64,000 nt of DNA from Deuterostichococcus epilithicus. Taxonomy: Eukaryota > Chlorophyta > Trebouxiophyceae > Prasiolales > Stichococcaceae. This document shows positions 9,501 through 63,500 of this stretch, one piece after another (the stretch's first letter is position 1; the number at the start of each line of letters is the position of its first letter). The DNA is taken from the NCBI GenBank assembly GCA_033439295.1, contig JAVTLE010000004.1, forward strand, positions 1,550,012 to 1,614,011, read 5' to 3'. Position numbers and translations under genes: made by a program. The notes below the pieces were generated by a model, which was not told the origin of the DNA, did no database searches, and saw only the letters and a program-made list of their open reading frames with translations.

Positions 9501-12500
9501 CTGGGCACACCTGGGCTGTCTGACGGCAATTTGCTACATGCCCATCATCACCGCCAGAACGATTCTTCATATATGCTGTATTTTGGGAGACGTTGTGTGT
9601 AGCTGCGCACCTTGGCCCGGCCGGCGGGGCCGCCCTCCAGCAGGATATTGTGCGGCTTCAGGTCGCGGTGCACCACCGAGGGGTGCAGGTACGCCAGCCC
9701 TGCCGCCACGTCGTGCGCGATCTGAGAGTGCGGGATCAAGGACAAAACGCATTGTCAGTTCAGCGGTGCACCACTGGCAGCACCGAGGGGTGCAGGTGTG
9801 CCAGCCTCGCCGCAGCGGCATGCACGAAATGCATTTGAGGCACCAGAGACGTTAGCGTTGCTGGCCTGTTGGACTTTGATAAGCTCCCCCTTGTAGAACT
9901 CATTGCTCGCATAGCGGACAGGAAGAAGCTGGGGCTCGATGAGGCCAGCTGCCGCTTTTTTTCAGCTTCTGCAGCGGCTGCAGCACAAGGTTAGCGTCAG
10001 CGAGTAATCCTTTGATGCCCCACTACCTGAGTCCACGACGTGCCGGAGCCGCTCAAAAACCTGATGGCAGTCTCATCCGGGTTGGTCAAGCTGTGCTTCC
10101 AGTGGAAAGGATGCGGTTTCTAACATGCTGCTGCCAGCTGGCTAGGAGTCTCATCTCCTGCGCTGTTCCGTTCGCCTACTAGCCTGAATCGCCTTGAAGA
10201 GACTGGTTGGGAACTGCCGGACAGCAGCCGCTGCAGGAGCACGAGTGGGGAGGCCTGGCATACCTGCAGGATCTGCAGGTAGTTGAGGCGGCGCTTGCGG
10301 CGGTCGTGGATGCGCTCCGCCAGGCTGCCGCCCTCCACAAGCTCCATGATAAGGCATGCGCTGCCGGGCTCGCCCAGGCACGCGCCCAGCACCGACACCT
10401 GGAGCGGCAGCATGCAGCAGTCATCGCCGCATGATATGGTCATCAGTACAAGGACCCAGCAGGGGGTTGTGGCTTGGCCTAAGCAGTGGATGCACCCTCG
10501 ACACGCTGGCTCCCTGAGGCACGCGCCGGGCGCAGCAACGCCTGCGGCGCGACATTCGATGCGACCCAAAGGGCTTGGTGGAGGCCGTCATCTGAAGCGT
10601 CCTACTGTGTGTTTCGACTACTCAAGAGAAATCTGGCGAGTGCCTGACAACATTGCCATCGTGTCATGCTAATGTGTTTCAGCCTCAGTCCTTGCCGCCA
10701 TGATCACAGGCAAGTGGTGAATGGTGTCGGGCAGATGTACCCAGGAGCAGCACTCTCGGATAGTGTGCGCAGGGACTATTACTGCTACACCTGGCCTTTC
10801 AACACACGGAGTCGCTGAGTGTGCAATAGCAGCAGCCCATTCCTACACGCTCACATGCCACTGTGACGCACCCTGAACAGGACGCAACTACAGCGCAGTC
10901 TGCATGACAACATGTTTCCGAACGGTTCAGTGAGTTGCCCAACAGCACTAGGGCTCTCTTAAGTGGCCAACTGGAATTACTTGACGACTCATTTCCTGCA
11001 TGGTGACCACTTTTGGGTGGTTGCCGCTTGGCAAGCTCTGGCAGAGAAGTGCAGCAGAGAAGGGCACGCCAGCAAGCCAGGCTGCCTGATCGGCAGAAAG
11101 GCACTATGATGGTCTTATATTGGCATACACCTCTGGCCGCTAGGAGGTTCTGACACGTGTAAAAAGCCTGGGTGAAAGTGACTCTCCAGGCGTCATTCCT
11201 CCAAAGTGCACCACGCAGCCGGAGCTTTGCGATGACTGCTGCCTGCCTTGACGATTCAAACTGTGCCTTGACACAATGCAGGGGAACACAAGACCAAAAA
11301 ATCACCCACCAAGCGGCTGCTCTTGAAGCGCGACGACAGCCGGATCTCCGCAATCAGCGCTCCATACTGCGCCTCAGGCGACGGCGCGTCGCGGCAGCGG
11401 TCCAGCAGCGCCGGCAGCCGCTTGACGGCGACCTGCCGTCCCCGCCACTGGCACTCGTACACATCGCCGAAGCCGCCGGAGCCCTGCGGGGTCGGTGGAG
11501 CGCACGGCCGGTCTCGGTCGGGATCCTGCTGTAGTGCTGACCGATTGTGTCGTGCCAGTCACGCGCCTGGCAACGGCCTGCCGTCCTGTTCCAGATGCTG
11601 CCTATGGAGGGGAGAGTGGTACCGGATGACGGATGACAGCACCAGAAGCTCGGCTGCCAGCGCTCCGGTGCAGCCCAGTCAAGGAGCACTACTGGATCAG
11701 CTCAGCACTACTAGATCACCTAAGCAGCACTACTGATTGACTTCGGACCAGTGGACCAGCGGACCACTGGACAATCTGTGACCCAGGACCACCTGTGTAT
11801 GCACCGGGGGACGCGCCTCCAGGGAATCGCTCTCAGTACACCGCAATGCAGCATCGGCTAGCCCCCACAGTGCCGAAGCGCAGGACATCGGCTCTGCTGT
11901 AGGATAGGCAAAAGACAAATAAGATACAGTTTCGAAGACGTCTACCCACCAGGCGGGCCCCCAGAAAGGGCGCAATCTCGGAAGCGTAGTCCACGTTGAG
12001 GTCCACGCCTGCGGCTGCGGCGGCGGTGTAGGAGCTCTGGCCTGGGCTGTACGGCAGCGGCGGCAGGAAGTGGGTCCCGCCCTACGCAGAATGGAAGGCC
12101 AAAGATAGGGGGCCAGATTGGCGAAAGAGCCCTACCCATGGCCGTATGTCAGCGGTGTCAGGAAATGCAAATCGCCATGTGCACAGCATGGAAATTTCGT
12201 TATAGGCAGACTGGACCCGCCGGTGCGGTGTCAGATCGTTGCCCCGGGCCGCAGGGCGGCATCGGCAGGAAGTGCGTGCCAATCTGTTCTTCACGCAGGC
12301 CAGGCGTCAACGCACGCATCATGATTAGGCCTTTGTCAGCATTGCTATCATGAGGCTAGTTGTACCTAGAAATGCAATTATGTTGACGCAATTGGCGCCA
12401 AGCTGTTCTGAGCCTGACCGCTCATCAGCGCTGCCAGTGCTGCAATGGTTACATCATGCTGTGGGGTTTGCATGCAGTTGCGCGCTCACCAGGGAGGCGG

Positions 12501-19250: not shown

Positions 19251-20508
19251 CGCTGGAAAGCGGCCGCTTGCGCCCGGGCAGCTCGGCGCGGGACTGGTTG
19301 ACCCTGGGCGCAACTCGCCAGACGTCCCTGCCGCATTCTCAAGCGCTTACCCCAAGAAGCTGTCGGCCCCGGCTCATGCCAGGAACCTTACCGCCTCGGC
19401 CGATGCAGGGGCAGCTCCTGTTGGTCCAGAGTCCACGGGAAGCTGACAAATGACGGACTAAGGCTATGACGCTGCTTGAAAATCCGGCACTTTTGGGCCG
19501 CTGTCCGCTGCTAGCGCGGTTGAGTACCGTCTGCCAGATCAGTGATGCCACCGGTCTGATGCCAGCGGCGGTTCGAAAGGAGAGATTGACAAGCTGGAGC
19601 AGGCGAGACTGGTCTTTGCTCCGGGAACTGCCAGGGATTGGTCTCACGAAGAGGACAGCGCGTTGGCGGACATATTCTGCTACTTCAGCTTCTCAGCGAG
19701 TTCCTCATCAGCGAGCAAAGGCTTACAGAACCAATTCGCTGGCATCCAAGGCTCCTCTGCCTCACGCCCCCCGGCATCACGAGAATTTGACCTCCTGCTT
19801 CCAATGGACCTGACGAAACCCCCGCCACGTCCACATATTTTGCCGCCCTGTTACACCACTGAGAAGCAATGGGTTCTTTCTACGGCTGACTTCTGGCAGA
19901 ATGCGCGTGTTTCAGCTGGCTGCGGCGTCCGTTTGTCGCCGACGAGCCATGATTGCACGCTTCGAGGCCGGCACTCCATGTCTTAGTGTTCCCGCAATGT
20001 TACACCACGCACTTACTCGGGAAACTCCCGCAGAGGACCCGACCTCGTTTGCATTTTGCAACGACCTGGAGGTTTTGGCAAAACTTCTTGCGCCAGCTAA
20101 ATTGGCCCAACTTTCTGCATATTCAATAAGAAGGATTACTGTGCTTGAGTACGGCCGTGTGCGCGTCTACGATCCTCGCGGCAGTGAGGAGGATCGGTGG
20201 CTCCTGGCCATCTCGTGTCAACATCAGCTCGCAACTTTCGCCACTGACTGCATACCAGGCCAGCCACGAGCTGCGAAGCGAACCCAATTCGTATGTATAG
20301 CAACAAGCGACCCAGGGGAGAGGAGTGGGGCAATCCCCAAGCAGGTGTGCTGCAGCGCATGCCTTGAGGGTGGCACGAGAGCGACGTTCACCTGTCGCTA
20401 GGGCATGCAGGCCACCCATGTGCGGTTCGTCAGTATGAGACAATCTCTGCGCTTGCCCTCTGGCTGCGAGCGCCCCTGCGTCCAGCTGCCGGTGGTGCTT
20501 GGTAGCAG
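19251..20508. promoter_or_regulatory. Divergent intergenic region
   Basis: About 1.26 kb between the receptor kinase start (-) and the first recognised exon of the hnRNP gene (+). It is less GC-rich than the genes, and ORFs of up to 166 codons here show no motif or homology that I recognise. It probably contains both promoters and the unrecognised first exon of the hnRNP gene, which must end with one base of a split codon. Confidence 0.4.
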
Positions 20509-22302: not shown

Positions 22303-22339
<37 letters not shown>

Positions 22340-24777: not shown

Positions 24778-27700
24778 TCATGCGAGCGCCCGTCCGATCT
24801 CCCGGGCCGCAAGGTCCTGGCGGCTGCGCATCGCATCGGCGGCATCGATGCGGCCGTCACGATTGGTGTCAAAAGCCTGCGGCGGCGCGCACATAGAACA
24901 AATATCCGCCTCGGGCTGTCAAAAGGAGCTTATCAATGCAGATTCATTCGGCACATAGGGGTTGGTTGGGTACTGCAGGCCAGTACCGAATCCAGCGCCG
25001 GCGTGCGTTGCATCGATGCCAGAATCTGCTTCCAGCACCAGTCGTCCCGTCGCCATGACAGGTGCACTGCTCTCACGCTGTCGGTGCAGCACCCGACTGG
25101 CCAGCACAAAGCGTGGCTGAGCCATGCGCCTTGCGCGCCGCGCACGCGGCTGCAGGCGCGGCCCTGCCATGCGTCCGACGACAGACATCCGCTTCATTCG
25201 ACGAGCTTTCGCTCGAGACACAGGTTCACGCCTGCGCCACGCACCTTGAACAGCAGGTCGATCTCGGCGCCGGTCAGGCCGTCAGCCGCGCCGGAAAGAT
25301 GCTGCGACTCCTCCACCAGCTGTGCGAACTGGGCCCGGCTCACCGGCTCTGCGCACGGCAGGCGGAACGTATTCGAAGCAACCAAAGAGAGCTGGGGAGC
25401 TCATGCTGCTTTGGGCGGCTGGCCGGTGGGCGGCCCGGGGAGGCGGCCGCTACGGAACAGGAGGCACCGGAACGGGTGCGATACTCCAGCTTGGGTGACG
25501 CAAATAACCCACAACCGTGGCTTGCAGCCAGGAGCAGCCCGGGCTTAGCGGGTGGATTGCTTTGTCGTTGAAGTCGAACGCCAGACAGCAAGGTCTCCCT
25601 CCGAGCAACACAACTGTGCATCGTGCACGGCGGGCCACTGCAGGCTCCGTCACCGTTCAGCATGGATGCGCGGTGCCTCGGGACGGGAAGTCCAAGCGGG
25701 AAGTCCACTTAGAAGCACCCAAGGCTGGCAGGGCAAGAGGGGAGAGCCCGCCGCTGCAGGAAGCGAACCCCACCAGACGCCCTGGCGCCTGCGCCCGCCG
25801 CGGAAGGAGGAAGAAGCAGATGGGCACATGCCGGAAGCTGGGGAGCTGGGTGTGGGCCGCAGGGTGCATGTCAGCGGCGGCGGAAACATAAAGTTGAGTG
25901 AGCAAAAAGAAAACGGCGCACCGTCGCGGACGCGCAGCGCCGCCAGGATCTCGTCCAGGTCGTTAAGGTGGTGCGCCAGCAGTTCCCGTGTCGCGCCCAG
26001 GTCCCGCACCTGGGAAAACAGGTATGCTCTCAGGGTTTAGCGCACTCTGAAGTTTCGTTGCACACATGTCATGCGCCGTCCCGTATCGTGTGCTGAGGCT
26101 GCGCAACGCGCACTTGCAGCGAATGGCAAACCCTGGACGACGCAGCCGGTGCGAGGCGGCCCAGGATCACTGAGCACACCTTCCGCTGCTGCTCGGTGTT
26201 GGGCCACAGGCGCTGGCCGGCCAGGATGCCGAGGAAGGTGGCGCTGGACAGCGCCAGACAGCCGCCCGCCACCCACCACAGCAGCAGCGGGTTGTCCTGT
26301 GGGCAGGTCAGGCCGAACCAAGGAGTCGGGGCACGGCTTCGGAGGCGGGCATGCGCCAAAAGCGGGGACGGCGGGAAGCAGGAAGGCCTTCCAGTACAGG
26401 GGGGGCCGCGCCTCGACGCCAGACGGCCAGAGTGCAAGGTCGTGCCGGAGGAGGAGGCTGGCACAGCGCCGGAACCCGGGCTGTGTTGAGACGGCAGCAA
26501 GGGGACGGATGGCAGGCGGTATCTCAAGTGCGAATTGATGTTGTTTGTCTTGTGTGTGCTATTCAGGCATGAACGACAACACGCACCTCGATGCCGGAGT
26601 GCAGGTTCATGCCGAAGAAGGAGGCGGGCACGGTGGAGGCCATGAGCGCGAAGGAGGCGACGCTGATGGCCAGGTTGAGCTGCAGCGTGCGGTTGCGCGT
26701 GTTGTCGAGGCTCATGTGCCACACCTGCGGGGGGGGACGGCGGAGGGATGGGTTGGTTGCTTCCGTGGTGCAACAGCCGGAGGTTTCAAGGGCCATGGCG
26801 CGCGGTAGCGGGTGTTCTCCAGCGGTCTTGTGTGCCACATGTGCCGTCCTCTGGTTGTGCACGCACGATTGGCCCGCTGCCGCCCAGCACCCGCAGCGCT
26901 GAGATTAGAGGACCAGGAAGACGAAAATTGGCAGGGTAGGGCGACAGGGGCGAGCAGGACTGGGATGGGTCCTAGCACACACATGGTGTCAATACTGTCT
27001 TTCAGCTCCCCCAGCCCGCATTGCCAGCTGAACTTCTTCACATCTTTCGGTGCCTCTCTCCAGTTGAGCACGCAAGCAGCTAGCTGAGGCCGCGAGCAGC
27101 TACCCATGGGTATCCAGTCCCACCTCGCGCACGGTGTCGATGTTTTCCTCCAGCTCCTGCAGCCCGCCGTCAATGGACTGCACCTGCCGCTGGTAGCTCT
27201 CCAGCAGGCCCGCGCCCCGGTACATGGCGGCCGTCTGCTGCTGCTCGCCCCTGTGCCACGCAGGCATTTTTCAGCGCCAAGCAGTAACTCTCCAGCAGGC
27301 CCGCGCCCCGGTAACATGGCGGCCGTCTGCTGCTGCTCGACCCTGTGCCACGCAAGCCCTCATTGGCGCCAAGCAGTAGCACGAACAGGAGCAACTCCTC
27401 AGAGCCGCCATGAACGCATCTCGAGCGCTCGCCAAGCAGCTGCAGTCCAGGGTTGCAGTCAGCAGCAGGCAAGCCGCAGTTGCGGGCGACGTCTGCGGCG
27501 TGAAGGCAGGGCGGCGGCGTCACAGTGAGGCAGCCAGATGGCGTTGCGGCTGCGTGCGGTGCCAGGCGCGGCAGCCAGAACAAGCGGTGCCACAGCCCGT
27601 GAGCAGGGCCTCCCGCTTGATGCAACGAGCGGACATGCGTCCATTCACATAGGAGCGCGGCGCACTTGAGCAGGGAGGACACCAGCCACGACCTGCCTAA

Positions 27701-42605: not shown

Positions 42606-45600
42606 ATGTCGCTACGGGCGCGCTTCGACATGCTGTCGCAGCCCATCAGCGGCGCCGAGCCGCCCCTGGCGCCCCGGCCGCAGCCGCCGGCCGACGTCTC
42701 GCAGGCCACATCTGCAGCCCCGAGAACGTCCAGCGCTTCCGCAGTTCCGCTGCCGACGGTGCTGTTGCAGCCGCGGGCTTCGGCCAGCAGCCAAGCGCCC
42801 ATCTGGAGGCCGAGGGGCACTGCAGCATCTGCCCCCGCAGTTGCCAACTACATGGAGGCCGGCTCTGCGGAGCTGCGCTCCAGCCGCGGCCGTGCCGCGG
42901 CGCTCAGCTCAGCAGCGGCATCGCAGGTGGGTGCCTCTCTACTGTGCGCATCAGAACCACTGCCCAAGAGGCTCGGTGAGGTGTGTGACCCAGGTGCTCT
43001 TGCGCAGGGTGCAGCAGGTCGATTTCAGAGCTGAAGCTGTTTGGATGTCTCAGAGACAAATTTTGGATGTCACAGGATCTGGACGCCTATTCCTCGGAGT
43101 ATGCTTGGATGCGATCGCTGCCCCTAGAGCCGGCGGCGGCACAGACTGCCGCTGAGGCCGCACCAGCACCAGGTGACTGCACGTCCCATTTCACATGTGC
43201 ATCTTCACCAGCGCTCCCAACCTTCATTCAGCATCTCGACAGTCTGGCTGCACATAAGGGTCTCGGCAGTCCGGCAGGAGCATATGGATGTAGACCATTG
43301 CCTGGGGCGTGATGTGCTTTTCTGACAATTCTACCGGGTGCAGGGCCACCCAGGTCGCCCACCTCTCAGCTGCTGAAGCGGAGCGCCCGCAGCATCACTC
43401 GTGTCAGCGCCCCAGCCGCGGCCCACCGCGCAGGTGCAGGAAACGCCGGCCAATGCCCGCTGGGCTGGCCGCTGCATGCTGAGTCAGCGGATTCCTGTGG
43501 CGCCCAATCGGCGGCTGCCCTCCGTCAACATCTGGTGTGCTGCGAAAGCATCCTGACATACCAATGTACAGCAGCACGCAACAAACATGGGTTGATGCAT
43601 CCAAACAAGCTGACGCTGTGGCGCAGACGACGCGCTGGCAAACGACTTATGGGAGACGGATTTTGCGCCGGCGTCAAAGGCTGCACGGCGGCGGCAGCGT
43701 GCCGAGGCCGCCCTGGCTGCAGAGGCCTCCGGCGAAGAAGACACGGGGCCCCGGGTGCCGGCCGCCCTGCCATCGCCATTCACAGCGCCGGCTGCCCCTG
43801 GGAGTGGGTACGGCTCAGAGGAGGAGCCGTACGTCTCTGACGACGAGAACACGACGCAGCGCCGTCGCGGCGGCGGCGGCGGCAGCGGCGGCGGCAGCAA
43901 AGCAGGTGGCGGCGGGGGCAGCAGAGCTGCCGGCGGCAGCGCCTCACCTAAGAAGCGTAAGGCGCCGTCGCCGGCGATCGAAACAGAGGAGGAGAAACGT
44001 GCGCGGCTGCTGCGCACGGGGCGCGGGCGGCCGGGTGCGCGCGGCGGCGGCGGCGGCCTTGCCAGCCAGGCGCCCGCTTTGGCCGTGCGCGAGGACGAGG
44101 TGAGACGGGCTGCGGGGTTGCAAATCTGGTTTTCTCGCACTGACTAGTTTGCATGCTGTGACGGAACAAATGAAGTGCGCAGCGGGTATTTCGAGGGACA
44201 GTGCTGAGTGTCACAATGTGCGTCACATACCAGGAGGCTTTGCATGCACAATTGCCGCTGCGGCTGTGCTGCATTGGCTGCTCGTGACAGGGCAGATGCA
44301 GGTCGTTGGCTCGTGCCTCCCGCGAAGCAGCACCTTCCCCGAGCTGTCGAGTCGCTCCTGAGGCATTTATCGGTATGAGCCGCACAGCATGGCGACGAGT
44401 TTTCCCTGGTGCCCGACCGGCTGGCTGGCAAGCGCAGGAGGCGCACCCGAACCTGGCCAACGCACCGCCGGCGGGCCCGGCCGAGCCGCTCGTCATGCGC
44501 GCCGACGCCGATGGCAACCTGCTGGCGCCGGAGGACGATGTCAGCACCGACGAGGAGGGTCTGGAGGCCGGCGGTGCGGCGCCGCCGCCGCTGACCGCGG
44601 TGGTCCCCGGCGGCATCGCTCGCTACCTGCGCTCCTACCAGCGCGAGGGCGTCCAGTTCCTGTTCAAGTGAGACTTTCGATCCCGCTTTCGATACCGCGT
44701 TGATTGATGTTGTTGGGTCCCTCCTGTCTGCGCCCCTACCGGCGCGAGTGCCTTTATTTTCTGTTCGAGTCCATGTTCTCTACTTCTTGCTGTGCCGTGC
44801 TGCGTGCCAGTGGCGTTAGCACCGACATCCGCCTCATCCTCCGCTTTGCTACGCTCGTGCACTTGCTAACAAATGCTCTGCTGGCTGGCTTTGTGGTGTG
44901 TACGACACGTCACAGCAGCGGCCCCTGCCGCCACCCCTGGCCAGCTGGAACAATGCCGCTCCGTGCAGAGGTCAGCGGCTCTCAGACCCAACAACCTGAA
45001 GGCACAGCGCCGCTCACATTGAGCGCAGGCAGTACGCCGCCGGCCGTGGCGGCATCCTGGCGGACGACATGGTGCGCGTCTGCTGCCCTTAAACCCTACC
45101 AGACTGATGTTGCAGCGCGTCTGCTGCCCCTGAAGCCTTACTAGACTGATGCTGCAACGCTGCAGCCCTGTCCTTGTCTTGCTGCGTTGGACTCGCAGCG
45201 CCCGGCAGTTTGTGCAGCGAGCTGGACGACGGGTGCCGGCACGGTGTCCGGCAGCGCTGCCAAACATGCACTCGATGACCAGTGTCCCAGGGCTCCAGTG
45301 CTGTGACCTGCTCAGGTCGAGCATCGCATGCAGCGAGACCATTTGGTAGCTGCACACAGTCCCTCAGTTTGCCACTGCTTCTGACTGTGCTGGATCTCCC
45401 GCTCCCCCCAGGGCCTGTGCAAAACAGTGCAGACCATCACCATTGCTGCGGCACTGCTCGACGACTTGTCGTGCTCGAAGAGTGCCAGCTTTCGGCTGAC
45501 AGATCTTGCAGAAGGTTTGCTGCCAATGTGACTGACGCGCCCGCTGCATCTTCCCAGGGCCTCGGCAAGACGGTGCAGACCATCGCCTTCATTGCGGCGC

Positions 45601-48600
45601 TGCTGGGCAAGTGCGGCCACGGCGGCGGGCGGCGGCCGCCGGCGCCACCGGACGCGCCGGTGGACGCGGTCACCGCCCCCGCCCGTGACCCGCGCCGCCG
45701 GGCGCCCATCCTCATCCTGTGCCCGGGTTCCGTCATATCCAACTGGCAGCGCGAGTTCGTGACCTGGGGTGAGGCGCCTACCTGTGCTGCGCTGCCTGAA
45801 CGGAGCACTATGTCGAAGATGGGGTCTCGGCGATAGTTGCATCTACATCACGCAGCGGAAAACATATGTGCAGAGGCTGCGGGGCGCAGTCGGGCTAGCG
45901 ACCTGTTTTGCATCGACAGCTCGTTGCACACCTGGTGTGGAGAGCTGGTCTTCAGAGGATTTCAATGGCTGCTTACTTCATTGGCTGCTCCGCCGCAGGG
46001 AGCTTTGCGGTGGTCAAGGGCCATGGCGCCTCAAAGGGCTCGGCGCTGCTGGCGGTGGCACGCGGCGATGCCGAGGTGCAGTGTCCACTTCCCCGCATGC
46101 TCCTGCAGAACGACACTCATGTTCAGGTGCATCTTGGTGAAGCTGCCACCATGAGGCCCCTTCCTGCCTCGTGGCATCTGTCTGGATCAGCAGTCACTGT
46201 GTGTGCAGAGCACTGCCTGTGCTCTGGAGGCTGTGACGGCGGCTCTCAGCCCGCACCAGCATCGCCATTTTTGCAGCGGCGGATGGGCTGAGGAGCAGCG
46301 GGAGGCCTCCTGCTGGCCGATTTCGCAAATCCGGCCAGATGCTTCATCGTGGCTCCATCGCCGCAGTTTCCAATTCCTGCTGTGCAGCCCTTGGTAACCA
46401 TGAATGGCATGTAGCATGACAGCGTGGATGGCAGGTGCCATGCTGGCGGCTTCTTGTTCTTGTTCGAGGCTTGATCCGCTGCGGCGCATTTCCTGGCCAC
46501 GATGCACAAGGCCTTCCGCAACTCGCTGAACGCCCTGTGCTGGCGCCACCATGGCACGTCCTGTCACTGCCGCACGGAAGCATCAGATCTCCTACTGGTG
46601 ATATTCATATACATCCGTACTGATTATGCTTGTTTTTGCAGGTCCTGGTCACCACCTACGACACCATCCGCACCTCCCTGGACGAGATGCTGGATATCCT
46701 ATGTATATCAGCACAATAAAATAATAATAGTAAATAAATTCATTCTTGCAGGTCCTGATCACCACCTACGACACCTTCCGCACCTCCCTGGACGAGATGC
46801 TGGACATCCCGTGGCACATTGCGATCCTCGATGAGGCGCACAAGATCAAGAGGTCGACGACGCAGATCACGGTGGCCGTCTCGCAGCTCAAGACCTGCTT
46901 CAGGCGGGCGCTCCTATTCTCAGCTCGTGTGGCTCCCTGGCTCCCTGGCGCTGCCCTGCTGCTGCCCCAGGGCTGCCGGGGGCTGTGCACGGCAGCGGTT
47001 GTATAGGCGCACACCTGTTACATGCGCATTGCGCTCGCAACTCGTCGTTGGAGCGTGCACCATCAGAGGCTGCGTGGCATTTGATTATACACTCCTCCTC
47101 CGGATGTTCGTGACAAGCCGTGTGTATCCACCCGCAGATACGGCCTGACGGGCACAGCAATGCAGAACCAGCACGAGGAGTTCTGGTGTGTCTTCTTTCC
47201 AGCAGGGGAGCTCACCCCTGTTTGGTCCTCGTCTCCTGCTTGTCTGACTTCCAACCTCTGCTTGACCGTCATGCCCGTCGCTCGTCATGTGTATGCCAGC
47301 TGCCGCCACCACACGAGCGCAACGGCTGCTCTGTAGCTTCCTCCTACAGAATGTTGAGTATGCATGTGCTCGACACGTCCTGCTCGAGCGTCGCCCCCAG
47401 AGCCGCGCGGCGGTGTCTCCATGTTGCAGGACGCTGATGAGACCTGGTCCAGCTTCGGCTGCTTCGGGAGCTGTCGCCACCGCAATAACACCAAACAAAG
47501 AAACAACCAAACGGCAAGGTGTCTTCCTGGCTGCAGGACGCTGATGGATTGGGCAAACCCCGGCTGCTTCGGGCTGCTGTCGGCCTACAAGAAGGAGTTC
47601 GCGAAGCCGATGAAGATGGCACAGTCCAAAGATGCTTCGCCGGAGGAGCTGCTGGCGGTGAGGATGGGAACTCGTTGAATGTGCGATGTGGTATATCTGG
47701 AAAATGTCTGAAATGGGTGCCACACCGCCAGCTGGACAGCGTTCAAGGCCACTCGCTAAGCCATCTGGGAAGCGGGGTTCGGATCGCAATCTGGAATGGT
47801 GGGATTTGGGCATCAATTCCCCCAAACAGTTGATGGCATGTCCAAGGCATGTCTCGTGCGTTGGGACTCCTTGAAACCTGGCACAGACACACAAGTGTTG
47901 GCACAAGGCGGCCGGGCGCCCGCAGCAGCATCGCCTCTGTGCTCACGCTAGGCCTGGGGCTTAACGCAACAGCTCGTCGCTGAGTTCTGCCGCTCGCCAC
48001 TGCTCCGATCACCGTCCGATGCCCAGTGAACCGGCGCAGGTCCGCCACAATGCAGTGGTGGTCCGCCCCCGCGCCGCCGCGCAAGGAGCCCCTCATCCGC
48101 TGCAGGTCTCTGGCCCGAGCACTGTGCTCGAATGCCCACCCTCGCTGCAGGGCAAGGAGGGGCGCAGGAAGGCGGTTCCTGCGCCCGGATGACATCATCT
48201 CCTGCCGCCCCGCTGCGGCGCTCACCACGTGTCTGTCGCGCTGTTGGCCACAGGGTGGGGAGGCGCAGGACAAGCACACCGCGATCCGCAACCGGTTCAT
48301 GCTGCGCCGCGAGAAGAGCCTCATCAGGCACCAGCTGCCGCTCAAGACGGACCAGGTCGTCTTCTGCGAGCTGTCCGCGCTGCAGGCGCGCGCCTACAGG
48401 TGAAGCTCCGCCCAGGAACGTCGCGACGGTTTTGGCTTGTCTTTGTTGTGTATGAGAGGCAGCTGGCTGTCCTCTTGCATTTCTCATCCACACGACGCGC
48501 ACCCGGCTGGCTGGCCGTCCTATCCCATGTTTTGCTTTCTGGGGTTGTGTGCCTGCCGTTGCTGGCATGCGCGGTGCTGCCGACAGCCCGGAGATCACCA

Positions 48601-51600
48601 AGACCAGCGTGCTGCAAGCTCTTGTGTGTGTTTGCTGGCGGATGGGCATGATGCAGCGCTCTGCGCAATTTATCACTTCAGATGGCTTCATAGCATTGGT
48701 TTCAGGGCCTGGTGGGTTTTCAGGCTTCAAGTGGGCGCCTCTGTGGCATGCTGCATGCGCACATTCGACTCCCCCGCCTTCGTGTACATCATGTCCACCA
48801 GCCCTAGAATCCGGACTTCTCCTTTCCGTAGCAAACCACGACTGGTGTGCTGCAGGCGCACCCTGGACTCGCCCGACTTTGTGTACATCATGTCCGGCAA
48901 GCCCTGCCACTGCGGCAGCGGGCGGAGAGGCTCCGAGTGCCACTATGCCGGCATGGAGGTGCGCACAGCCTCATGCCTCATGCCTCATGCTTCGTTCAGC
49001 TCTTTGTCACGACCAACAACGGCGCTGCCGCTCGCATCAGCTGGGTGGTGAGCGGCACGGCTGAAGGGGGTCGCCGCGCTGTGTGCTGACCTTGTTTCGT
49101 TCCAGACGAGGCTGCATGCCAGCGGACGCTGCTGGTGGGTAACATGACACAACAGGTGCATTTCTAATTATATGGAAAGTTTTATCTATAAAGGGCACTG
49201 CCGACGACCGGGAGGACACGTGCACGCTGTGGCGCCACTACCACATGTGCGACTGCCCCGATCCGGCAACGACCACCAACCCGAAGGCGCGTCCCGAACC
49301 GAGCGCTCCAACGCCTCACGCCGCTGCCGTTGCCCGGCAGGGGACATGGAAGAGAAGCGGCACCGGCGACCGCAGTGCCTGTGCAGTGGCGTCTGTGCAG
49401 CGGCGCCCGCCTGTGCAGTGGCGCACACCCCTCACAGTGAGTGTGAATGGTGGGGTCAGCATGCTACCTCCTGCGCCATGGCGTCTTGAAACAGAATTCG
49501 CTTGCGCCGCAGGGCTGCAAGTGGCACAAGCCGGACGGCTGCGACGGAAGCACCTCTAGGTGCCCCTGGTGCCTGGTCATGCCCGCGCTCGTGGTGCTGC
49601 GCAAGATCTCTAACCACCTGGAGCTCGTCAAGGGTGCGGCTCACACACATTCGGCACATATTCGGCCACACAGCCCCGGGAGCGTCCGGACGTGTCGGCA
49701 GCGGATGTGTGTGATGTTTGCGCCGTGGCTCAGCGACTCTAGCGGCTTTGGCGGCTCCTGTCTGCGCTCCTCGTCTCTGCAACACAGCCCGGTGTTTGAG
49801 ACACAGAGGGCCGCTGCCCGGCGCGCAGCAGGCTCGGCCATGCAGAGGGTGGACCCGTGGGGGACTTGCGAAAGCAACAGAGCCACTCTGGGGTTTGGCT
49901 TGGGCTGTGTGACGCAGGCGCTCCTCCCTGCTGCGTTCAACCCTGCTGAGTTCCACCCTTCTGACGCTCAACTTCCGCTCAAATGCACCTCAACCGCGCG
50001 GCTACAGGGGAGCTGAGAGGGCGGGCAGGCGCAGGGTTTTCTATCCTTGACAAGCACCCGCAGCGCCACTGGCGCATAGTGTTCACTGTTGATGCATCGC
50101 GCACCTTCTCTGACCTGCAGCGGACCCGGCCATAGAGAAGGCGGACTGGCGGAAGTACCAGCGCCACTCCGAGGTGGCGCGCCTGGTGCTGGGCCCGGAC
50201 GCAGCGCAGCTGGGTGGGTGACTGTTTCTCCTTCGGCTGTGCAGCACCACTGGCTGCCAGTCTGGAGCATGTGTGCGATGTGCGTTGGCTCTGCTGCACG
50301 GCGGGCGAGTTCTGACGTCCGCAACGAGTCCCCTGCGCTGCAGGCGGCACCGACTTGGACCCGCGCTTCCTGCGCAACATGGACACCGGCGACTGCGGCA
50401 AGCTGCAGGTGCTGGAAGGGCTGCTGGCGCTGTGGGCATCCCAGCGCGACAAGGTGGGCGGTGTTGGAAAAATTATACTCTTCATTTTCAGAATATACAA
50501 GGAAGAGCGGTTCCCTGCTCGAGGTTTGCATAGAGAAGGTTTGCTTGGGGAACACGCTCCCAGGCCGAGCCCACTTGATCACCTAGGGCGGCCGGAATGG
50601 CAGCCGCTCATCGCCTGTGGCACACGGCGGGCACCCTCAGCTTTGCCTCTGCAGACGGCATCGCCATGTTGGGGGCATGCACTGACGAGGCAGCAGGTGT
50701 GAGCGGGCCCGCCACCGCGGCGAGCCTCCCGATGCGCCACAGCTGTGAGAGCGCGCCGGCGGGTCGTCTGCTCCGAGCTGTCTGCCAATTTGACAAGCCC
50801 CGCCGCCGGTCGTGTCTCGGGTGATTTCCTCAGTATCAAAGGCCGCCGCCGCCGCCTGCGGCCTCATCCCACAGCACCAAGCGGCATGCCCTGCCGCCGG
50901 ACCTGATCAGCGACCGGTACTGTGCCATGCAGGTGCTGGTGTTCAGCCACTCGGTGCGCATGCTGGCGCTGGTGCGCGCGACCGTCATCAGCCACGGCTG
51001 GGCCCACGAGTACCTGGACGGCTCCACGCCGCAGGCACGCTTTTAGATCACTTGATCCAAATCAACTTGGTCAATTTCATCTTGATTCCTGTCATCCTTT
51101 TTTCTCACCTTGCCGGCGCCTGGGTTCCTCATCAGCCCGGATGGCTCCACGCCGCGGTCATCCAATTCTTGTTCCTGTTGGTTGTTTTGTCCGATTAGCT
51201 TCCAGCGTCTGCATGTTCAATATGCCACGGCTGGACCCACGAGCACCTGGACGGCTCCTGGCCGCCGGCGCGCTTCTCATCCCCATTTCTTCCACTTTCC
51301 TTGGCTTCCCTTGCTTTGCGTCCGTGTTGGTGTTTTGTGTCCACATCGCTCGGTTGCTTGTCATTGTTCGCTGCTCATGGTCTGTGCTGCAAGGGACGGG
51401 ACTGCATTTGAATCAGGATCAGCGGGCGCAGCGGGCTCTGGGCGGCGGGCAGTTCTTGGAGTCCTGGCATCAAGCCACCTCCTGATCGAATCAGGCTGGC
51501 CTGGCGCCTTGGTACAGGGGCGATTTTGGTCACTTGCTTCAATCTGCACAGCTTCTGCGCGCCCAGCCGGTTTCAACGCCGGCGCCGGTTCCCGCCTGCA

Positions 51601-54600
51601 GGTGGAGCGACAGGTCAAGGTGGACAGCTTCAACGACACGCCGTCCACGTTCGTGTTCCTCATCAGCACCCGCGCCGGCGGCCTAGGCCTCAACCTCACC
51701 TCTGCCAACAAGTGCGCTCGCCCTGGCACAGCTAATGTTTCGCTTTCAGTTGCGAGCATGCCAAGCGAGGCTCGTCGCCCTGAGCACTTAGCTTGCCTCA
51801 ATCCGGAGGGCTGCAGCCGCCATATTCCTAAGACCTTTGCGATCTGCGGGTCGAGCCGCGGGTGTTTCATGCCGTGTGCAAATGTGTCAGCTGCTCCGCG
51901 TGCACGCACCGTGAACCTCAAGATTTCACGTCTGAGCTTCCTTCCCAACCTGCTGCAGGGTGGTCATCGTGGACCCGTCCTACAACCCTGCCGACGACCT
52001 GCAGGTCTGCCTCTGATATGCAGGTTGCGTCTGATCCTGATTCCGACGATTGTGCGCCCCTCAAGGGCGCAGCGGCAGCAGCTTGCATCCCATCTCCTGC
52101 CGAACTTCCGGATGGGATGCCATGCAGCGCCGCAACCGGCTGGCGCCACCGTTCTGCACCCCCTCGTCATAATTCCCACATGTTGGGGTTGCACACTCTT
52201 TAGGGTTTAGGGATTCCGATGCGCTGCCTGCACAGGCGATGGACCGGGCATTCCGCATCGGGCAGCGCCGCAATGTGAATGTGTACCGCCTTGTCGCCAC
52301 CGGCACCGTGGAGGAGCCCATCTACAGCCGACAGGTGCGCAGATCTCATTCATATAACACACCCCGGCACGAGACTGGCTGTGGCTGAGCCTCGGCCCTG
52401 GCGGCCGCCGGTTTTGGGGAGCCATTTGCAGCTGCCAGATGACGTAATGGCGCCGGCACTGCTGGAACTCCAATCAACTGTTGCACAGCATCAGCCTCGC
52501 GCATTGGCTGTGGTCTTAGCGCCAGACTGGCTGCAGTCTGTTGTAAATTGATGCAGCCCGCCAGCTGTGCCGCATCCCACTTCTACGGACCTGCATCCGC
52601 CTTGCAAGTGGATGGACTGCCATGCCGGCATTTCTCCATGAAACACTGTGCATTACGCTGCTCGTGACAGAGCTTCTCTGTTCGCCCCTGCAGATCTACA
52701 AGCAGCAGCAGACGGCAACAGCGACGGAGGGGAAAGATCAGAAACGCTACTTCCAGGGTGAGCACACTTCCTCCGAGCTCATTCACTCACAAGCTCCCCG
52801 AATGATACTACTGTACTACTGGCGCCGCATGCTCGCTTATGTGAGGACCGAGTATGATGCTTCGGAAGGCTAAGCCATAGATGTGCTTCTACATCGGCTT
52901 CGGAGAGTGCAAGCATAGAAGCACAGAGCAGGCTCTGCTGCACACCTGGCCATGCGAAGGTGAGTATGTTCCGCAGTGCCTGCACCGTCGCAGTATGTAG
53001 GTGCCAGGTGGCAAGCTCAGAGCTGGGGAACGTAGCACCAGCTGCCATGGTGCGGCAGGATGCACACTCATTAAAACGAAAATTGAAATGCGCCTGCGTT
53101 GTGCACCGCAGGCGTGCACAAGGTGAAGGTTGTTTTGAAGTTTCAACAAAATTCAAGTTACAGGGACGGGAACGCAGGCTGTGGGGCCTGGCCAACAGTG
53201 GTGAAATGCTTAGCGCATCCCTCTGCGGGAAGTCGCACCCAACCCTCTTGACGTCTCGACATCTGTATCCATCCTTTGCGTCCGCAGGCGTGCAGACGGT
53301 GAAGGGGCTGGAGAGGGAGCTGTGAGCACTCTCCTATAGTGGTGAACCCCTTAGAGCACCTCCGACGAAAGTTATATCATGACACGTGTCTCCATCCTTC
53401 GCCACCCCCGCAGGCGTGCAGAAGGTGAAGGGGCGCGAGGGGGAGCTGTGGGGGCTGTCCAACCTATTCGCATTCACTGGGGACCGCATCAAAACCCTGG
53501 ACGTGCTGGACGCCTACCCGCAGCAGGTGGGACTTTCTGCTCCGAAGTCGAGGGTTGTTTCTTTGAAACCTGAGCTGGGTGTTGTGGGGTGGGGCGTGGT
53601 CTTGCATTGGTGGCGGGCCTTTGAGCCCCCGGCCTGCGCTGGGAATGGAGCGAGGCATGAGTGCACGACCTACCCAGGAATGCATGATGCGGCCGGGTGT
53701 GCATGTGTGGCGCAGCGGCGTACCTGTGCAGATTTGATGCTTTGTCACAGCTGATTCGCTGGAGCTGTGGCGTGGTCAGCATTTTTCACTACATGACACG
53801 CGCTGCATCATCGTTATGCGAGGAGTGCGTCTCGCCGCAGGCGCAGGAGGCAGTGAGGCGCCACATCGAGGACTCCCCAGAGGTTTCATCAGAAGCGCTT
53901 CAGTGGGAGTGTCGTAGGCTTCGTTTCATGCAGGACTCTTGTCGTTCATAAAGGGACTCATCCGAGGAACTGCTGGCTTCAGGCGGAGCGCAGGCGCTAC
54001 CACATTGAGGACTACCAGCCGCCGGAAGAAGCGGAAGCAGAGGAGGAGGGGGATAGGGCCGAGCATGCTCAGGATGCCGCCAGCGCCGCCGGCGTCGGCG
54101 TCGCCCAATCGCAGGCGCGCTGCTGACCTGATGTGAAACACATGGTGTCCGACAGCACCAGCGAGTCTGGCGCATTTCCGGCTCTGTACCGGCCCGGCTT
54201 CTCCTTGAACTGGCTTGCCACGCAGCCCGCTTGTGCCACAGACGGCGACCGACTCCGATGACGAGGGCGCCGGCGTTGGCGCCCTGGCGGAGCAGCTACT
54301 CAAGGCGGAGGAGAGCCGCGAGGAGCAGCGCCGCGAAAGTGAGGAGGCAGATGCCATGGAGGAAGCAGGGGAAGGCGAGGAAGCAGCAGAAGGCGCGCCG
54401 CTGGACGCAGATGCCGCCATGGAGCTAGCCACCCTGGAGGTGGGTACTCATCAGTCGGAAATCGCCTGTGTCAAACCTTGTCTGCAAGTGCATGCGTTGC
54501 TGCGGGCGCATACAATGCTTTGAGGCGCTTGTGCTGTGCAGCTCCACCACAACCTGCCTGTGCATCGAGTTTTCTGCAACCGGGTGCTCGGGAGCCGGAC

Positions 54601-57500: not shown

Positions 57501-60500
57501 ATGCACGCCTCGGGCCGCAGCAGGGGCGGCGGCGTCCGCCTGGCGCTGCGGCTGGTGCTGCTGCTCGTCTGCGCCACCGCTGCCGTTCGACTCCTGCAGG
57601 TGCTCTGCTCGATCCCGCATGCCACATGCATCCATGCGACTGCATCCCTGAAGGCTCGCAAGTGATGCCAACGGTTGCACCCTGCGTCCTGCGAGGTAAA
57701 TTGTCCATGCAGATGGTGCGGCGACGTCTGAGCGTGCTCCGCAGGTGGGGCGGCGGACGCCCGGCAGGAACCTCATTGGCAACGTACTTCCAGGAGGCGG
57801 CGCTGCTGAAACAGAGGTGAATTGCGCAGCGGCTCTACTGCAGGTGGAGACAAGCAGTCCCTTCAGTGGGGTTGCCGGCCTGCCCGGTTGCGACAGCATT
57901 GCCGAGCCCAAGTTGCCACGTCCGTACCCCCGCTTGGGGCTTGGTCAGCTGGGACTGGCCGCTGGGGTCACTGCCAGACTTCCGTCCACGTTGATGACGT
58001 TCCTCTGCTGTACGATCGCGTTGGAACGGCGCGAGAGACTAGGGGAGCCCCAATGAACCCGTTTCCCACTGCAGGGCACTGGTCTCATTGGCTTGCGCGG
58101 CGCAAGCGGCGGGCAGCCTGAGGCTTCAGCGGCGGGGAAAATGACAGCCGGCGGGCGGCGCGCAGACAAAGAGGATGCGGGGCGCGAGCTGCCCCGCCTC
58201 CAGAGCCTGCTGCAGGATGCCAGGGCGGAGCTGGACGCCATGAAAGGTGCACTGGTGCTGAGTGGCCGCGCATGCTGGGCGTCAGAGCCGGATAGCTGCT
58301 GAACGCAACGAGCATCGTGAAATTCTCACAAGCAGAAGCCGCACGGTGTGAGCTGCGTCACCGGCCTTGCAACGCTAAGCTCTGCCAGCGCTCAAGCCGC
58401 TCAGGGTTTTGCGGGGACACACCCTTGTAGTGGAGACGACAAGGACGCTCGGCTGCGGTCTCAATCCATGCGGCTGCCCCGCGGCGCCTTGCAGCTTCTC
58501 TTGCACGATCAAGGGGATTTTCTACAGCTGAAGAAGACTTTCCGACGCGCGCAGTGGACCGAGCCAACACGGCGCGCCATTTGGATCATTCGCTGCGCCT
58601 CAGGGCCGAGGCCTATGCGGCAGCGGCGGCGGCGGCAGAGTCACCGGCCGCAGGTGTGCGCCTCCACCCTTCAGCCTGCCACGGCTGCTGCCACTGCCGA
58701 TGCAACAGTGTGCAGCTGCTTCTGGTCATGCTGGATGCCCGGCCACAGAGGGAGTGTGTCCAGCAGCCGCTCTGCGCTGTGTGTGCACGGCCGCTGGGCA
58801 CACGAAACAGGCCGCCGGCGCTGCGCACCTGGAGGACCGCAGACCCCAGAGGAGGCTGTCAGCGTGACCCTCGAGATCCTAAGCATGCACTGCGCCGCCA
58901 GTGCAGGCATGGCGGGCGAGCAGTGGCCCAGCGCTGGAAGGCCCGAGGCTTCCCTCCCTGACGCCGCCGTCGCCGCCGCCGCCATTCCTAGGCTGCAGTG
59001 CGTAGGCCCAGCAGTGGGCACTGCCGGCGTCGTCGCGGCGGTGGTCACAGTGACCTTCAACCGGGCGGACTACCTGCGGCAGCACCTGGACTCGCTGCTG
59101 TCGGTGCACGGGCGGGACCCCGCCAACAGGTGGGCTCAGGGCTTCTCCTCAAAGGTCCCTCGAAGACATTTGCACAACCTCGAACGTGATGACACGGTGG
59201 CCTTTTGACGGTGTCTGTCCACGGGCAGACCACCTGCGGCAGCACCTGGGCTCGCTGCTGGCGGTGCATGGACGCGACCCCGCGAATCGGGGAGGGCGGG
59301 GGGGGGGCTCTGGCAGATTACCCGATGTTGGGACGGAGAACTTCGGCGGGCACACTAAGGAGGTTTGCAGCGCACCCTGGTGTGCTGGGGTGTACCGTCT
59401 CTCGCCACGAATGTGTGGCCGCCGCAGGGGCCCAGGCTGGGTGGCGCATGCCTCGGCCGCTGCATGAGGAACTCGTTGCAACGGGGCGGAAAGTCGCCTG
59501 GGACAGGCGTTCTCGTATCAGACGACAGTGCTCGTATCAGACGACGTGCCATGTAGCTTTGCTGGACTCAATGGCAGCTGCTGGCACGGCGGTGCTGTGT
59601 GGCACCTTTCGACGGGGGCCACAGTCGTGGCTCCCTGGCTGGTCTCCTGCTGTGCGGTGCACCCACGTTGATTGCACACGCTCCTGACCACCGCTGAGCG
59701 CTGCCCAGCGGATGATGCAATATTCTTTTCCTGGCAAATGATTGTTTGCTCCATGAGCGTCCTGTCGCTTGCATCATGCATGGCAGTGTTTTCCACCATG
59801 CAGCTCGCTGCCATGCAATGCAGGCGGCGCTTCCCGCTGCACATTGCGCAGGACGGTGCGGACTCTGACGTGGCGGCCCTGGCGCGCAGTCTGGAGCCCT
59901 TCGGCATCAGGCGCGCAGCTCTGATGACATCTGCTGCTGCTGTCGCCCACTGCACGGTGCCGCTGGCTGCTGCGAGCCGCTTGCCTCAGAAGCCCCGTGG
60001 CTTGTTTGCCGAACGAAGCCCGCTACTGGCCATTGGCCAAACTGTTGCTGGCCGCAGCGGCTGGCTGCAGTGTTGTTGGGGCATTGGCCTGGCGGGGCCG
60101 CTGCGGCAGGGGGAATGAAAGAGATTCTGTCAATCTATGAAATCCTTTCATTGTTCTTGATTGCAACAGGGTACTTCGCTGTGCGTGCTACTTTGGCACG
60201 TGTCCCACTATGCATGTGCAGCTGCAGCAACAGCGCCAATCATCGGTAAACGGACTGTCATCTCGACGGGCTCCGGCAAATCGAGCTGGCGTCTGCGCCA
60301 CAAAGTTTCCGACTCTGCATGCGGCGCATGGTCGGGGCCTCGAGCCCGGAGCTGCCTGTTCTCTAAGTACAGTTGCCGCTCGAGTTGTGTGTTCTGCTAA
60401 GCACGGTCAAGACGTGACTTGCTGTTGCAGGTACCTCGACCACGGCGGCATCGATGGCGTGGCAGAGGCAAGACAAGGACGCGCACGAGCTCATTGCGTG

Positions 60501-63500
60501 CAAACTCGTGAAATTCCAGGCCGCCTGCGCAGGTACTTGAACCACCGCGGCAGCGACGCCCGCCGGAAGCACGAGAGGAACGCGCACAAGCTCATCGGCG
60601 CGCACTACCGCTTCCTGCTGTCGCAGTTCTTCGACTGCTTCCGCTACCCCAAGCTCATCATCCTGGAGGTGCGGAGCAGCTACAAGTAGAGCGGCTCGTA
60701 TGGCAGGGCGGCAAGACGGATGCACGGGCATCGCCATCTCTGACACCTGTGTCGCACAGCTGTGACTGTGTTGAGCATCCCAGGCTGATCGTTGGAGAAC
60801 AGTGTGAGGCAGCGAGCCGGCTCCTCGCGAATGACCTCTGCCGTCCATTCGCTGCCGCAAAGCTAATCCCGTGATGCTGCTGTGCCATTGTGGCTACCGC
60901 TGCCGCAGCCATCACTCAGCCGTGCCATGTGCAGCCGGTGTTCAGCTTCACTGCAGTGGCTATGCTGCTGCTGTCCGTGCAGAGACTGCGTCGCTGACAG
61001 TGGACTTCCTTCCCCACTTCCGCGCTCTTGGCTGCCAATCTTCAAAACAGATCTGCTGCTGCTGCCACTGCAGGTCGACAAGCAGCTGGCGGCGGACGTC
61101 TGCGCGGCCTTTCATGGGACCATTCCCTCACATTTTGAACTTGAGAAATCTCAGGGATCTCCTGCTTTCAATGCACTTCGCAGGACGACATGCAGCTGGC
61201 TGTTGACTTCTTCCCCTACTTCCGCGCCGGCGCCCGGCTGCTGGACGACGACCCCACCCTGTACTGCATAAGCTCCTGGAACGACAACGGCCAGGTGCGC
61301 CCAGGGCCCTCCACGTCGATTGCTGTCTGGCATGAGTTTCACCGCAGCATTTGCTGCATGCGCCCCGCCCGGCGTCATTTGCCTGCAGTCTGACGAGGAC
61401 GCTGCCGGCTGCACTCGTGGCCCGCATCATGATGCGAGGCAGAGGGTTGAACCCAGGCCTCGCCGCCGTGTCTGAGGTGGTTCTGCTGTCAAACTGCTGC
61501 CCGCAGCACTGGAACGTGCGGGATGCGGTGGCGCTGCGCCGCACCGACTTCTTCCCCGGCCTCGGCTGGATGCTGTCCGAGGAGGTCTGGGCCAGCATCA
61601 GGTGTGCTGTGACCGACCTGCTGGCTCAGAACTCTCGCATGCCAGCCCTGGCAGTCAGTCGACCCTTAACCCTTGCAAAGTGAGGCAGAGGCGACCACCG
61701 GCAGGCATGGGGCCCCTGCATCCTGGGAAAGGGCCGTCGTCGCCCCGCATCGCTGGTGGGCTGCTGTGCCACGCAGTGCACGGCAGACGAGCTCAAAGCT
61801 GCGCTCCAGCTTCAGAATGGGCTCTGGAGCAGGCAGCCGGGGGACGCTTGCTTGCAGATCATAGGCTGGCCGTGCAGCACCGCACACGCCTGCAAGGTTC
61901 GACACCGTTGTCCAGTCGCACAGTTGTGTGGTGTGCGCCTTGATGCGTGGGCGGCTCGTAGGCATGGGACGGCTGGGGTTGAATGCCATCTTGATTGGGA
62001 TTTAGAGGTTAGGTCTAGTAGCTCTCCACCTGGAATGCCAAAATGCTACTCTCCCAGCTGCAGCGCCCGCCGCAGTGCGTGCAGCTGCTGGGTACCGGGG
62101 CAACGCCTTCAACGCTGGGCCTCGCCAAACGGTGCCGGGCCTGTTGACCTGTTCCTGCTGCTCGACTGCAGGACGCGCTTCATGCCGGGCAGCAACTGGG
62201 TGTGGGGCGTTGTCTCCAAAACCCTCGACCGGGGTTTGGACACATTGAACCTCGACTGTTTTGCACCTGTCATCTGCCCGCAGGACGCGCTTCATGGCGG
62301 GCAGCTACTGGGTCTGGGACGACTTTCTGCGCATGGCCACTGTGCGGCGGGGGCGGCAGTGCATCCAGCCGGAGGTCTGCCGCAACTTCAACTTTGGCGC
62401 CCGGGTGAGGCAACTCTGGCGCCCGAGTGCGGCCTGCATGTCATGTTTCATCTGGGTTCCGGCCGCGCGGAGAGGCGCCGCCAGCGTGTGGCGTCGTGTG
62501 CTGGGGANGGGGGGGGCTGCACGCCACCTGAAGTGCACCCTGTCTGCCGCACAGCAGTGCCAGGCCGTGGCCGAAGCGGCCCTGTCAGCACGGCGGCACG
62601 TACAATCTAACACAGCTGTTCCGAGGCAGCTGGCGCCGCAGTTGCAGAAGTGCAGAGGCCACCCACCTCGGCACACAGTGCAGCAGGCCGCCCCGAGCAA
62701 ACTGGCCTGCACCTCCACCTCACTGGGTTGCTGTTGCTGCGGGCAGGGCTCGTCGAAGGGGCAGTTCTACGCGGAGCACCTGCTGCCGGTGCGGCTCAAT
62801 GGCGAAGACGTCGACTGGGGCCGCCAGAGCCTGTCGTACCTGCAGCCCGATGCTTACCTGTCGCTCATGCAGTCGCGCCTGATGGGTGTGTCACCACTGC
62901 CTTTCAGACAGGGAACTGCATTCCAGGCAGGCGCTGGTGCCTGCCGCCAAGTCGAAGTGCGTCCTGGAGAGTCTGTTAGGACCGCCTGGAGAGGAGAAAT
63001 GTCGACTCATGCCCGCAGCGAAGCATGCTGGTCGTGCATGCCCTCCCAGCAGCAGTGTGTGGCTGCACTTGTTCTGGTCACGGGACTGAAGCCCAAAATC
63101 CAAAACCAATCGGCCACTGCTGGATCTTGGAGTCGGATGTTGATGTAAGCCGACCTTGCAGCTCTGCCTGTGATGCACCGTCACAGGCATGGCTTTGATC
63201 GGAACGAGCGACCCTTGTGCAGCTGCTGATGCAGAGCAGCAGCCGCTAGGAGCTCAACAGGTATTGCGCACTTCAAGTGCAGTGCTCTGCTGTTCTCAGG
63301 TACACCAGCTCCCTGGCGATCCTCATTCTATGTCACAAAGGGTGGCAGTACCGCCTCCTGTAAGCTCCCGTACCTACCCTGATAACCGAACTGCACACAG
63401 GTGCAGCGCCGGTCGCGTCTGTGGCAGCGGCTCGCGCTGCAGCGGGCGACGCAAAGCTGGAATACGACAGCATGGACGGTTTCAAATCGCTGGCGCAGAA

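Follow-up and report, generated by a model that had tools for sequence, protein, structure and literature searches.

The question raised by a 64-kb stretch of the genome of the green alga Deuterostichococcus epilithicus (contig JAVTLE010000004.1; the window, meaning this stretch at its full length) is why its introns contain diverged copies of the edges of the exons next to them, and whether a process directed at exon edges has to be invoked for them. We put a probability of about 70% on the reading that the copies are remnants of recurrent small local direct duplications across an exon–intron boundary, with units of about 75–170 bp and, in some cases, filler between them. A special exon-edge process is then mostly unnecessary, as boundary duplications filtered by splicing, combined with fast decay of their intron halves, give the main picture, if not every detail. 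The analysis covers the window and 20 sample stretches of 10 kb (L002–L021), taken outside the window on which a preliminary description had been based, for a total of 264 kb from one genome of 46.8 Mb (21 contigs, G+C 62%). Genes were modelled with a small gene finder that was self-trained on this sequence and accepted GT donors only. It returned 65 genes and 664 introns over the 264 kb, with a median intron of 185 nt, a median exon of 90 nt and a predicted splice consensus of CAG/GTGCGC at donors and YGCAG/G at acceptors. Among the window proteins, Pfam identifies a kinase, an MRS2-like transporter and a cytochrome-b5-domain protein, while alignment matches GnT-I to MGAT1 and shows the helicase to be ERCC6-like.

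The copies are genuine, and they extend beyond the window. In a self-comparison of the window for direct repeats (E < 1e-3), lags of up to 3000 nt were allowed, but those of the 16 repeats found all fall between 61 and 233 nt. Over the 264 kb, at a score of at least 45 and a lag of at most 2000, there are 55 local direct repeats, 39 of them in the samples, whereas two dinucleotide-shuffled replicates contained none. Inverted repeats, sought in the real sequence only, number four, all in sample loci and with lags of 300–499. Lags of 100–149 account for 22 of the 55 direct repeats, and eight of the 55 lie at 500–2000, so that the earlier statement that copies always flank their parent is not established. 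Thirteen of the 20 sample loci have at least one direct repeat with a lag below 500, and the 47 such repeats in the window and samples are 72–100% identical, which is near the divergence of 5–35% first described.

When 377 confident internal exons were compared with about 400 nt on each side, with other exons as queries providing the expectation, an upstream match scoring at least 38 was found at 24 exons (0.25 expected) and a downstream match at 15 (0.26 expected); at a score of at least 30, the numbers are 48 (3.8 expected) and 25 (3.1 expected). The 83 window exons contribute 11 upstream and four downstream matches of the stronger class, and the 294 sample exons contribute 13 and 11; thus, the excess that the preliminary description proposed to seek by self-comparison with shuffled controls and by a wider scan is present, also in the samples. 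The six genes it named fared unequally: the copies are clear in the receptor kinase, MRS2-like, cytochrome-b5-domain, ERCC6-like helicase and GnT-I genes, but the hnRNP example is weak, since, apart from a repeat that lies inside a single coding exon, no score in 19800–25000 exceeds 42, and we do not count it.

Twenty of the 24 upstream matches start between −1 and +15 nt relative to the acceptor, for queries that extended 15 nt into the intron, and among the 15 downstream matches there are 11 whose end lies no more than 15 nt from the donor. In the commonest layout, the 5′ edge of an exon, with a few nucleotides of intron tail, is copied upstream within the intron, and the copy stops in mid-exon. 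A second exon-anchored scan, at a score of at least 36, yielded 47 matches, namely 23 at 5′ edges, 12 at 3′ edges (including one L018 match seen from both sides and an exon–exon match of repetitive coding DNA at L012 exon 2440) and 12 others, which were excluded from the edge statistics. The lags of the 35 edge matches are 74–167 nt, except for five at 194–322. Pairs of shared 11-mers between exon and non-exon sequence are absent at lags of 11–40, where pairs within non-exon sequence are commonest; they rise at lags of 60–80 and peak at 100–120 (0.80 per nt of lag, against a baseline of 0.063). One exon of L008 (7238–7523) has two upstream copies, at lags of 114 and 236.

The preliminary description had named a mis-merged assembly as the main alternative, in which two haplotypes were joined in tandem. 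The sequence does contain a few N positions, but the graded identity of the repeats, their unrelated spacers, their stops in mid-exon and their spread over most sample loci appear to disfavour such an error, and we give it almost no credence.

How, then, could such copies persist? If a small duplication straddles an acceptor, the product would contain the intron tail and exon start twice in succession, followed by the rest of the exon. Should the second acceptor be used in vivo, as we infer, the message would be unchanged and the first copy would be stranded in the intron; duplication of a donor would be the mirror image, with the first donor used and the copy lying downstream. Duplications within exons, or without a functional splice site, would be purged, and those that remain would persist because splicing removes the extra copy and leaves the message intact. 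Each survivor would lengthen its intron by about 110–140 nt and add a decoy splice site. The exon half would remain recognisable because its partner is constrained, whereas the intron half would fade because it is free on both sides. The mutations themselves may come from the repair of staggered breaks or nicks.

If a tandem duplication spans a boundary, the similarity should extend into the intron but break off abruptly within the exon. Tested against random intron windows, the 5′ copies taken together show similarity beyond the copy on the intron side (Fisher p = 0.001; 5/23 at p < 0.05, or 6/23 with another draw of the null) and not on the exon side (0/23, p = 0.89). Colinear intron halves survive in at least four cases, the pairs at 53258–53450, 62168–62321 and 27193–27378 and that of L008 exon 5304, with a fainter alignment at L008 and 62168–62321 than at 53258–53450. 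In the young MRS2-like tandem (27193/27284), the exon half has 2/58 mismatches and the intron half 7/33. The 44 direct repeats with a lag below 300 comprise 29 exon/non-exon, eight intron-only, two intergenic and four exon–exon repeats and one other. Intron-only repeats make up 4/13 at an identity of at least 88% and 4/31 among older pairs, which is the direction expected from decay, although the cases are few. A simulation with a steeply declining length distribution, in which each duplication had to include 45 nt or more of intron and 33 nt or more of exon, gave quantiles of the 5′ lags of 88–92, 97–108, 114–131, 135–162 and 156–195, compared with 93, 101.5, 113, 134.5 and 193.8 observed, an agreement reached by tuning the parameters after wide-range simulations had failed.

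Table 1. Exon-edge copies and related duplications in the window (positions in the window; edge, source; copy, its duplicate)
Span	Strand	Gene	Feature	Identity	Remark
9670..9720	-	receptor kinase	exon 5′ edge, source		self-comparison; kinase domain by Pfam
9777..9827	-	receptor kinase	copy of this 5′ edge, upstream in intron	80%	self-comparison
12023..12280	-	receptor kinase, second exon	5′ edge 12023-12078; weak copy 12225-12280	73%	score 37
26426..26631	-	MRS2-like (~27 kb)	3′ edge 26593-26631 of exon 26587-26724; downstream copy 26426-26464	82%	
27193..27378	-	MRS2-like	young pure tandem duplication, unit ~92 bp, across acceptor of exon 27124-27250		
27661..27880	-		copy series from 3′ edge of exon 27860-27994		lags 94 and 194
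27949..28089	-		5′ edge 27949-27997; upstream copy 28041-28089	92%	
29610..29732	-		tandem duplication within an intron, unit 61 bp	94%	
39351..39513	-	cytochrome-b5-domain (~39 kb)	5′ edge 39351-39399; upstream copy 39462-39513		domain by Pfam
44627..44770	+	helicase	3′ edge of exon 44438-44667; downstream copy 44728-44770	79%	
45407..45604	+	helicase	exon 45558-45768: copy 45407-45458, edge 45553-45604	81%	
46633..46809	+		copy 46633-46699, edge 46743-46809	94%	43-nt A+T-rich spacer between
47412..47582	+		copy 47412-47476, edge 47518-47582		
48749..48905	+		copy 48749-48805, edge 48848-48905		acceptor AG lost in copy
50991..51275	+	helicase	probable 3′-edge copy: 50991-51042, copy 51224-51275	88%	putative exon
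53258..53450	+		full tandem duplication: copy 53258-53324, edge 53381-53450		intron half still aligns along spacer
59062..59286	+	GnT-I	3′ edge of exon 58907-59129; downstream copy 59222-59286	88%	
60427..60595	+	GnT-I	copy 60427-60494, edge 60529-60595	about 75%	
60993..61227	+		61195-61227, close to 5′ edge of exon 61184-61294; weak copy 60993-61025	82%	score 36
62168..62321	+	GnT-I	copy 62168-62209, edge 62280-62321	90%	

One of the eight repeats counted as intron-only (50991/51224, Table 1) may belong with the exon edges. We read it as an exon 3′ edge that the gene finder missed: its source, 50991–51042, is probably the end of a helicase exon at 50933–51026 with a GC donor (CAG/GCACGC), absent from the gene model. 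Two further features of the window may be recorded. The cytochrome-b5-domain gene has a stop-free frame of 663 codons on its antisense strand (38995–40986, plus strand), which is probably spurious in such G+C-rich DNA, and a TPP riboswitch aptamer is found at 36004–36113 on the minus strand (62.5 bits).

A rival explanation is templated repair. A break within an intron could be mended by synthesis-dependent strand annealing on a proximal template, in which case only the exon-edge piece would have been inserted and the spacer would be original intron. Nine of the 14 5′ copies with an identity of at least 84% lack an intron half despite a power of at least 0.93 at the neutral ratio, and some mid-exon pieces have been copied as well, such as that of L014 exon 7806–7998, part of whose copy the gene finder calls an exon. 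The pair 46633/46743 has a sharp-edged copy next to an A+T-rich spacer, and a telomere-like spacer at 28010 would likewise suit a patch. Such repair would be expected to insert copies in either orientation, on our assumption, yet direct copies outnumber inverted ones by 39 to two among the exon-anchored matches scoring at least 38; it leaves unexplained why the sources start at splice sites, and in several cases the whole unit is duplicated in tandem. Given the intron-side similarity of the 5′ copies under the random-intron-window null, we reject templated patching as the only process, and as a general account we regard it as unlikely.

The spacers share no family within the 264 kb. When 35 of them were compared with this sequence, the hits, once telomere-like pieces and additional copies from the spacer's own locus are set aside, were of at most 44 nt (best E 7e-4), and the 43-nt spacer of 46633/46743 occurs nowhere else in the 46.8 Mb at up to three mismatches. 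A mobile spacer family or introner is rejected on the comparison with the 264 kb and on the genome-wide search with this one spacer.

Eight interstitial occurrences of the telomere-like sequence CCCTAAACCC were counted in the 264 kb, where base composition predicts 0.6; they lie at 28010, 30610, 39890 and 52203 of the window and also in L005, L011, L012 and L017. The occurrence at 28010 lies within the spacer of the copy pair 27949/28041, as if telomeric DNA had served as filler there.

Several observations weigh against boundary duplication as we have described it, and the fate of the intron half is the first of them. At a neutral ratio of about 1.5, an intron half would be expected in 13.8 of the 14 pairs with an identity of at least 84%, but it is seen in five. 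A ratio near 5 would fit these young pairs (4.1 expected, five seen), and the ratios measured in six alignable cases range from 1.3 to 7.1 (L019, with 0 mismatches in an exon half of 14 nt, was omitted). The pair 46633/46743, at 94% identity, has no intron half where the power to find one is 1.0 even at a ratio of 5; here, at any rate, the copy must have ended sharply, next to a spacer that resembles filler. The deficit implies that intron halves turn over several-fold faster, that exon halves are kept similar, or that many copies never had an intron half, as is the case for 46633/46743. Furthermore, a null built from the flanks of other loci gave similarity on both sides of the 5′ copies (intron p = 0.003, exon p = 0.0016). 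Since the two nulls disagree, the asymmetry between intron and exon sides rests on the random-intron-window null, which we prefer here. At the 3′ copies, the intron side gives no clear similarity, with 1/12 anchored and 2/12 local comparisons at p < 0.05 and with p = 0.16 under the other-loci null.

The simulations and the gene models add to these difficulties. In simulations whose mean extra length was 40 or 25 nt, intron-only duplications were about 15 to 54 times as numerous as boundary duplications, compared with 8:29 observed, and we estimate that their simulated number is still about three times too high after allowing for faster decay. Wide length distributions gave lags that were too long (medians of 184–198 at 5′ edges), and the 3′ lags can be matched only by imposing the 45-nt intron minimum on that side as well, a condition that we cannot well justify. 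Near-symmetry or the reverse is predicted, but upstream matches exceed downstream ones by 48 to 25 (score of at least 30), an excess for which boundary duplication does not account. Finally, the gene models are home-made from the DNA sequence alone, and one repeat each in L004, L012 and L018 was counted from both sides. It is conceivable, although quite unlikely, that the duplication machinery or the preservation of its products is tied to exon edges, with short exon-edge pieces being copied from a boundary near the splice site, or stranded exon halves being kept similar by gene conversion from the exon or by a role as splicing decoys; intron-rich genes would then carry an exon-guided form of intron growth.

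Could the copies instead be functional, as alternative or decoy exons under selection? At the acceptor position, 16 of the 22 scorable 5′ copies keep the AG, with a score that exceeds the 5% quantile of confident acceptors in 15 of the 16 cases, so that on paper they are predicted decoy splice sites; in some duplications, moreover, the exon halves look better kept than the intron halves. By our own arithmetic, the 6/22 without AG are about what roughly 15% divergence would produce. The nine youngest pairs (identity of at least 90%) have no codon-position signal, with mismatches of 8/118, 6/116 and 8/118 at the three positions, and therefore one copy of each pair is not coding; among 26 older pairs, there is a mild excess of third-position mismatches. 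Coding alternative or mutually exclusive exons are rejected on the flat mismatches of the young pairs, and selection for an exon function of any kind seems highly improbable. The suggestion that the process seeds new exons likewise finds no support here, whereas the rest of that proposal, a continuing local tandem process that lengthens introns and would leave decoy splice sites, is supported by the local and mostly direct copies of graded age, by the retained AGs and by the greater length of introns that contain a copy (median 306 nt, n = 23) than of those without (222.5 nt, n = 264).

Alignments to known proteins leave no room for extra segments either. When the helicase is aligned to ERCC6, none of the four junctions after an intron with a copy (exons 45558, 46752, 47537 and 48856) carries an insert; the gaps of this alignment lie elsewhere and point to missed or wrong model exons. 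The GnT-I model includes the copy at 62168 among its exons (62172–62201), and it is here that the alignment to MGAT1 is interrupted, the translated copy falling in an unaligned stretch of 48 residues where MGAT1 has six. The gene finder also took copies for small exons at 27316–27342, 39486–39503 and 60431–60458; thus, such copies mislead gene prediction and are an annotation hazard.

Tandem duplication has also been proposed to create introns outright. In the model of Rogers, an exon piece containing AGGT is duplicated, and the lag equals the length of the new intron. The L003 pair 7427/7566 fits this register, its lag of 139 matching a predicted intron of 139 nt, but the exon call is weak there (confidence 1.2) and the pair can be read as a copy of a 5′ edge. 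A register score of at least 12 is reached in three introns, against 1.06 expected, and one of at least 18 in a single intron, against 0.5 expected. Over 628 introns, the mean register identities of 0.263 and 0.260 do not exceed those of shifted controls (0.274 and 0.265); AGGT-based intron gain is consequently rejected as a general explanation, although a few single cases may be of this kind, and we find it hardly credible as the source of the copies.

Boundary-straddling duplication has relatives elsewhere, as far as the passages of the reports concerned show. In the RdRp gene of potato, a tandem duplication crosses an intron–exon boundary, and a cryptic donor made an extra intron that was confirmed by RNA-seq (PMC4974935). 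As in our cases, the unit consists of intron tail and exon start, and the second copy inherits the splicing signals; unlike that single gene, the alga offers many cases, in which the first copy has seemingly been left inside the old intron. Repair-mediated duplications in vertebrates, with capture of proximal DNA, are described as local, up to 619 bp long, continuously arising and joined by filler or microhomology, with sources that include intron splice sites and with two duplicated exons free of coding constraint (PMC2671141). Among the human donors in that report, 278 of 824 are intronic and only four are partial exon/intron pieces, and one exon copy is inverted. The likeness lies in local, continuously operating duplication that includes splice sites, and the difference in the prevalence of direct exon-edge copies in this alga. 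Fill-in at staggered breaks yields direct tandem duplications of tens of base pairs independently of repeats or homology (PMC8355091) and would be a plausible source, although it was demonstrated on induced breaks in mouse and human cells, mostly with products under 100 bp. The intron gain by tandem duplication proposed for Drosophila, in which an exon piece is duplicated and one copy becomes the intron (PMC2891723), differs in needing a proto-splice site in the exon and in making a new intron, for which the register test is negative here. Among the open-access papers listed in our searches, judged by titles and the openings of abstracts, we saw no report of a genome-wide series of exon-edge copies, and a Coccomyxa genome paper has none in its passages on introns, exons and tandem duplication. 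The type of mutation is already known; its density and the fossil series at exon edges appear to be new.

If our explanation is true, strong scars (score of at least 38) lie upstream of 24 of the 377 confident internal exons sampled here, or about 6%, and downstream of 15, or 4%, and this alga would preserve a readable fossil series both of intron lengthening and of the way in which splicing buffers insertions that would otherwise break genes. Given how many of the 5′ scars retain an AG in an acceptor-like context, the alga may also be regarded as a natural experiment in splice-site choice.

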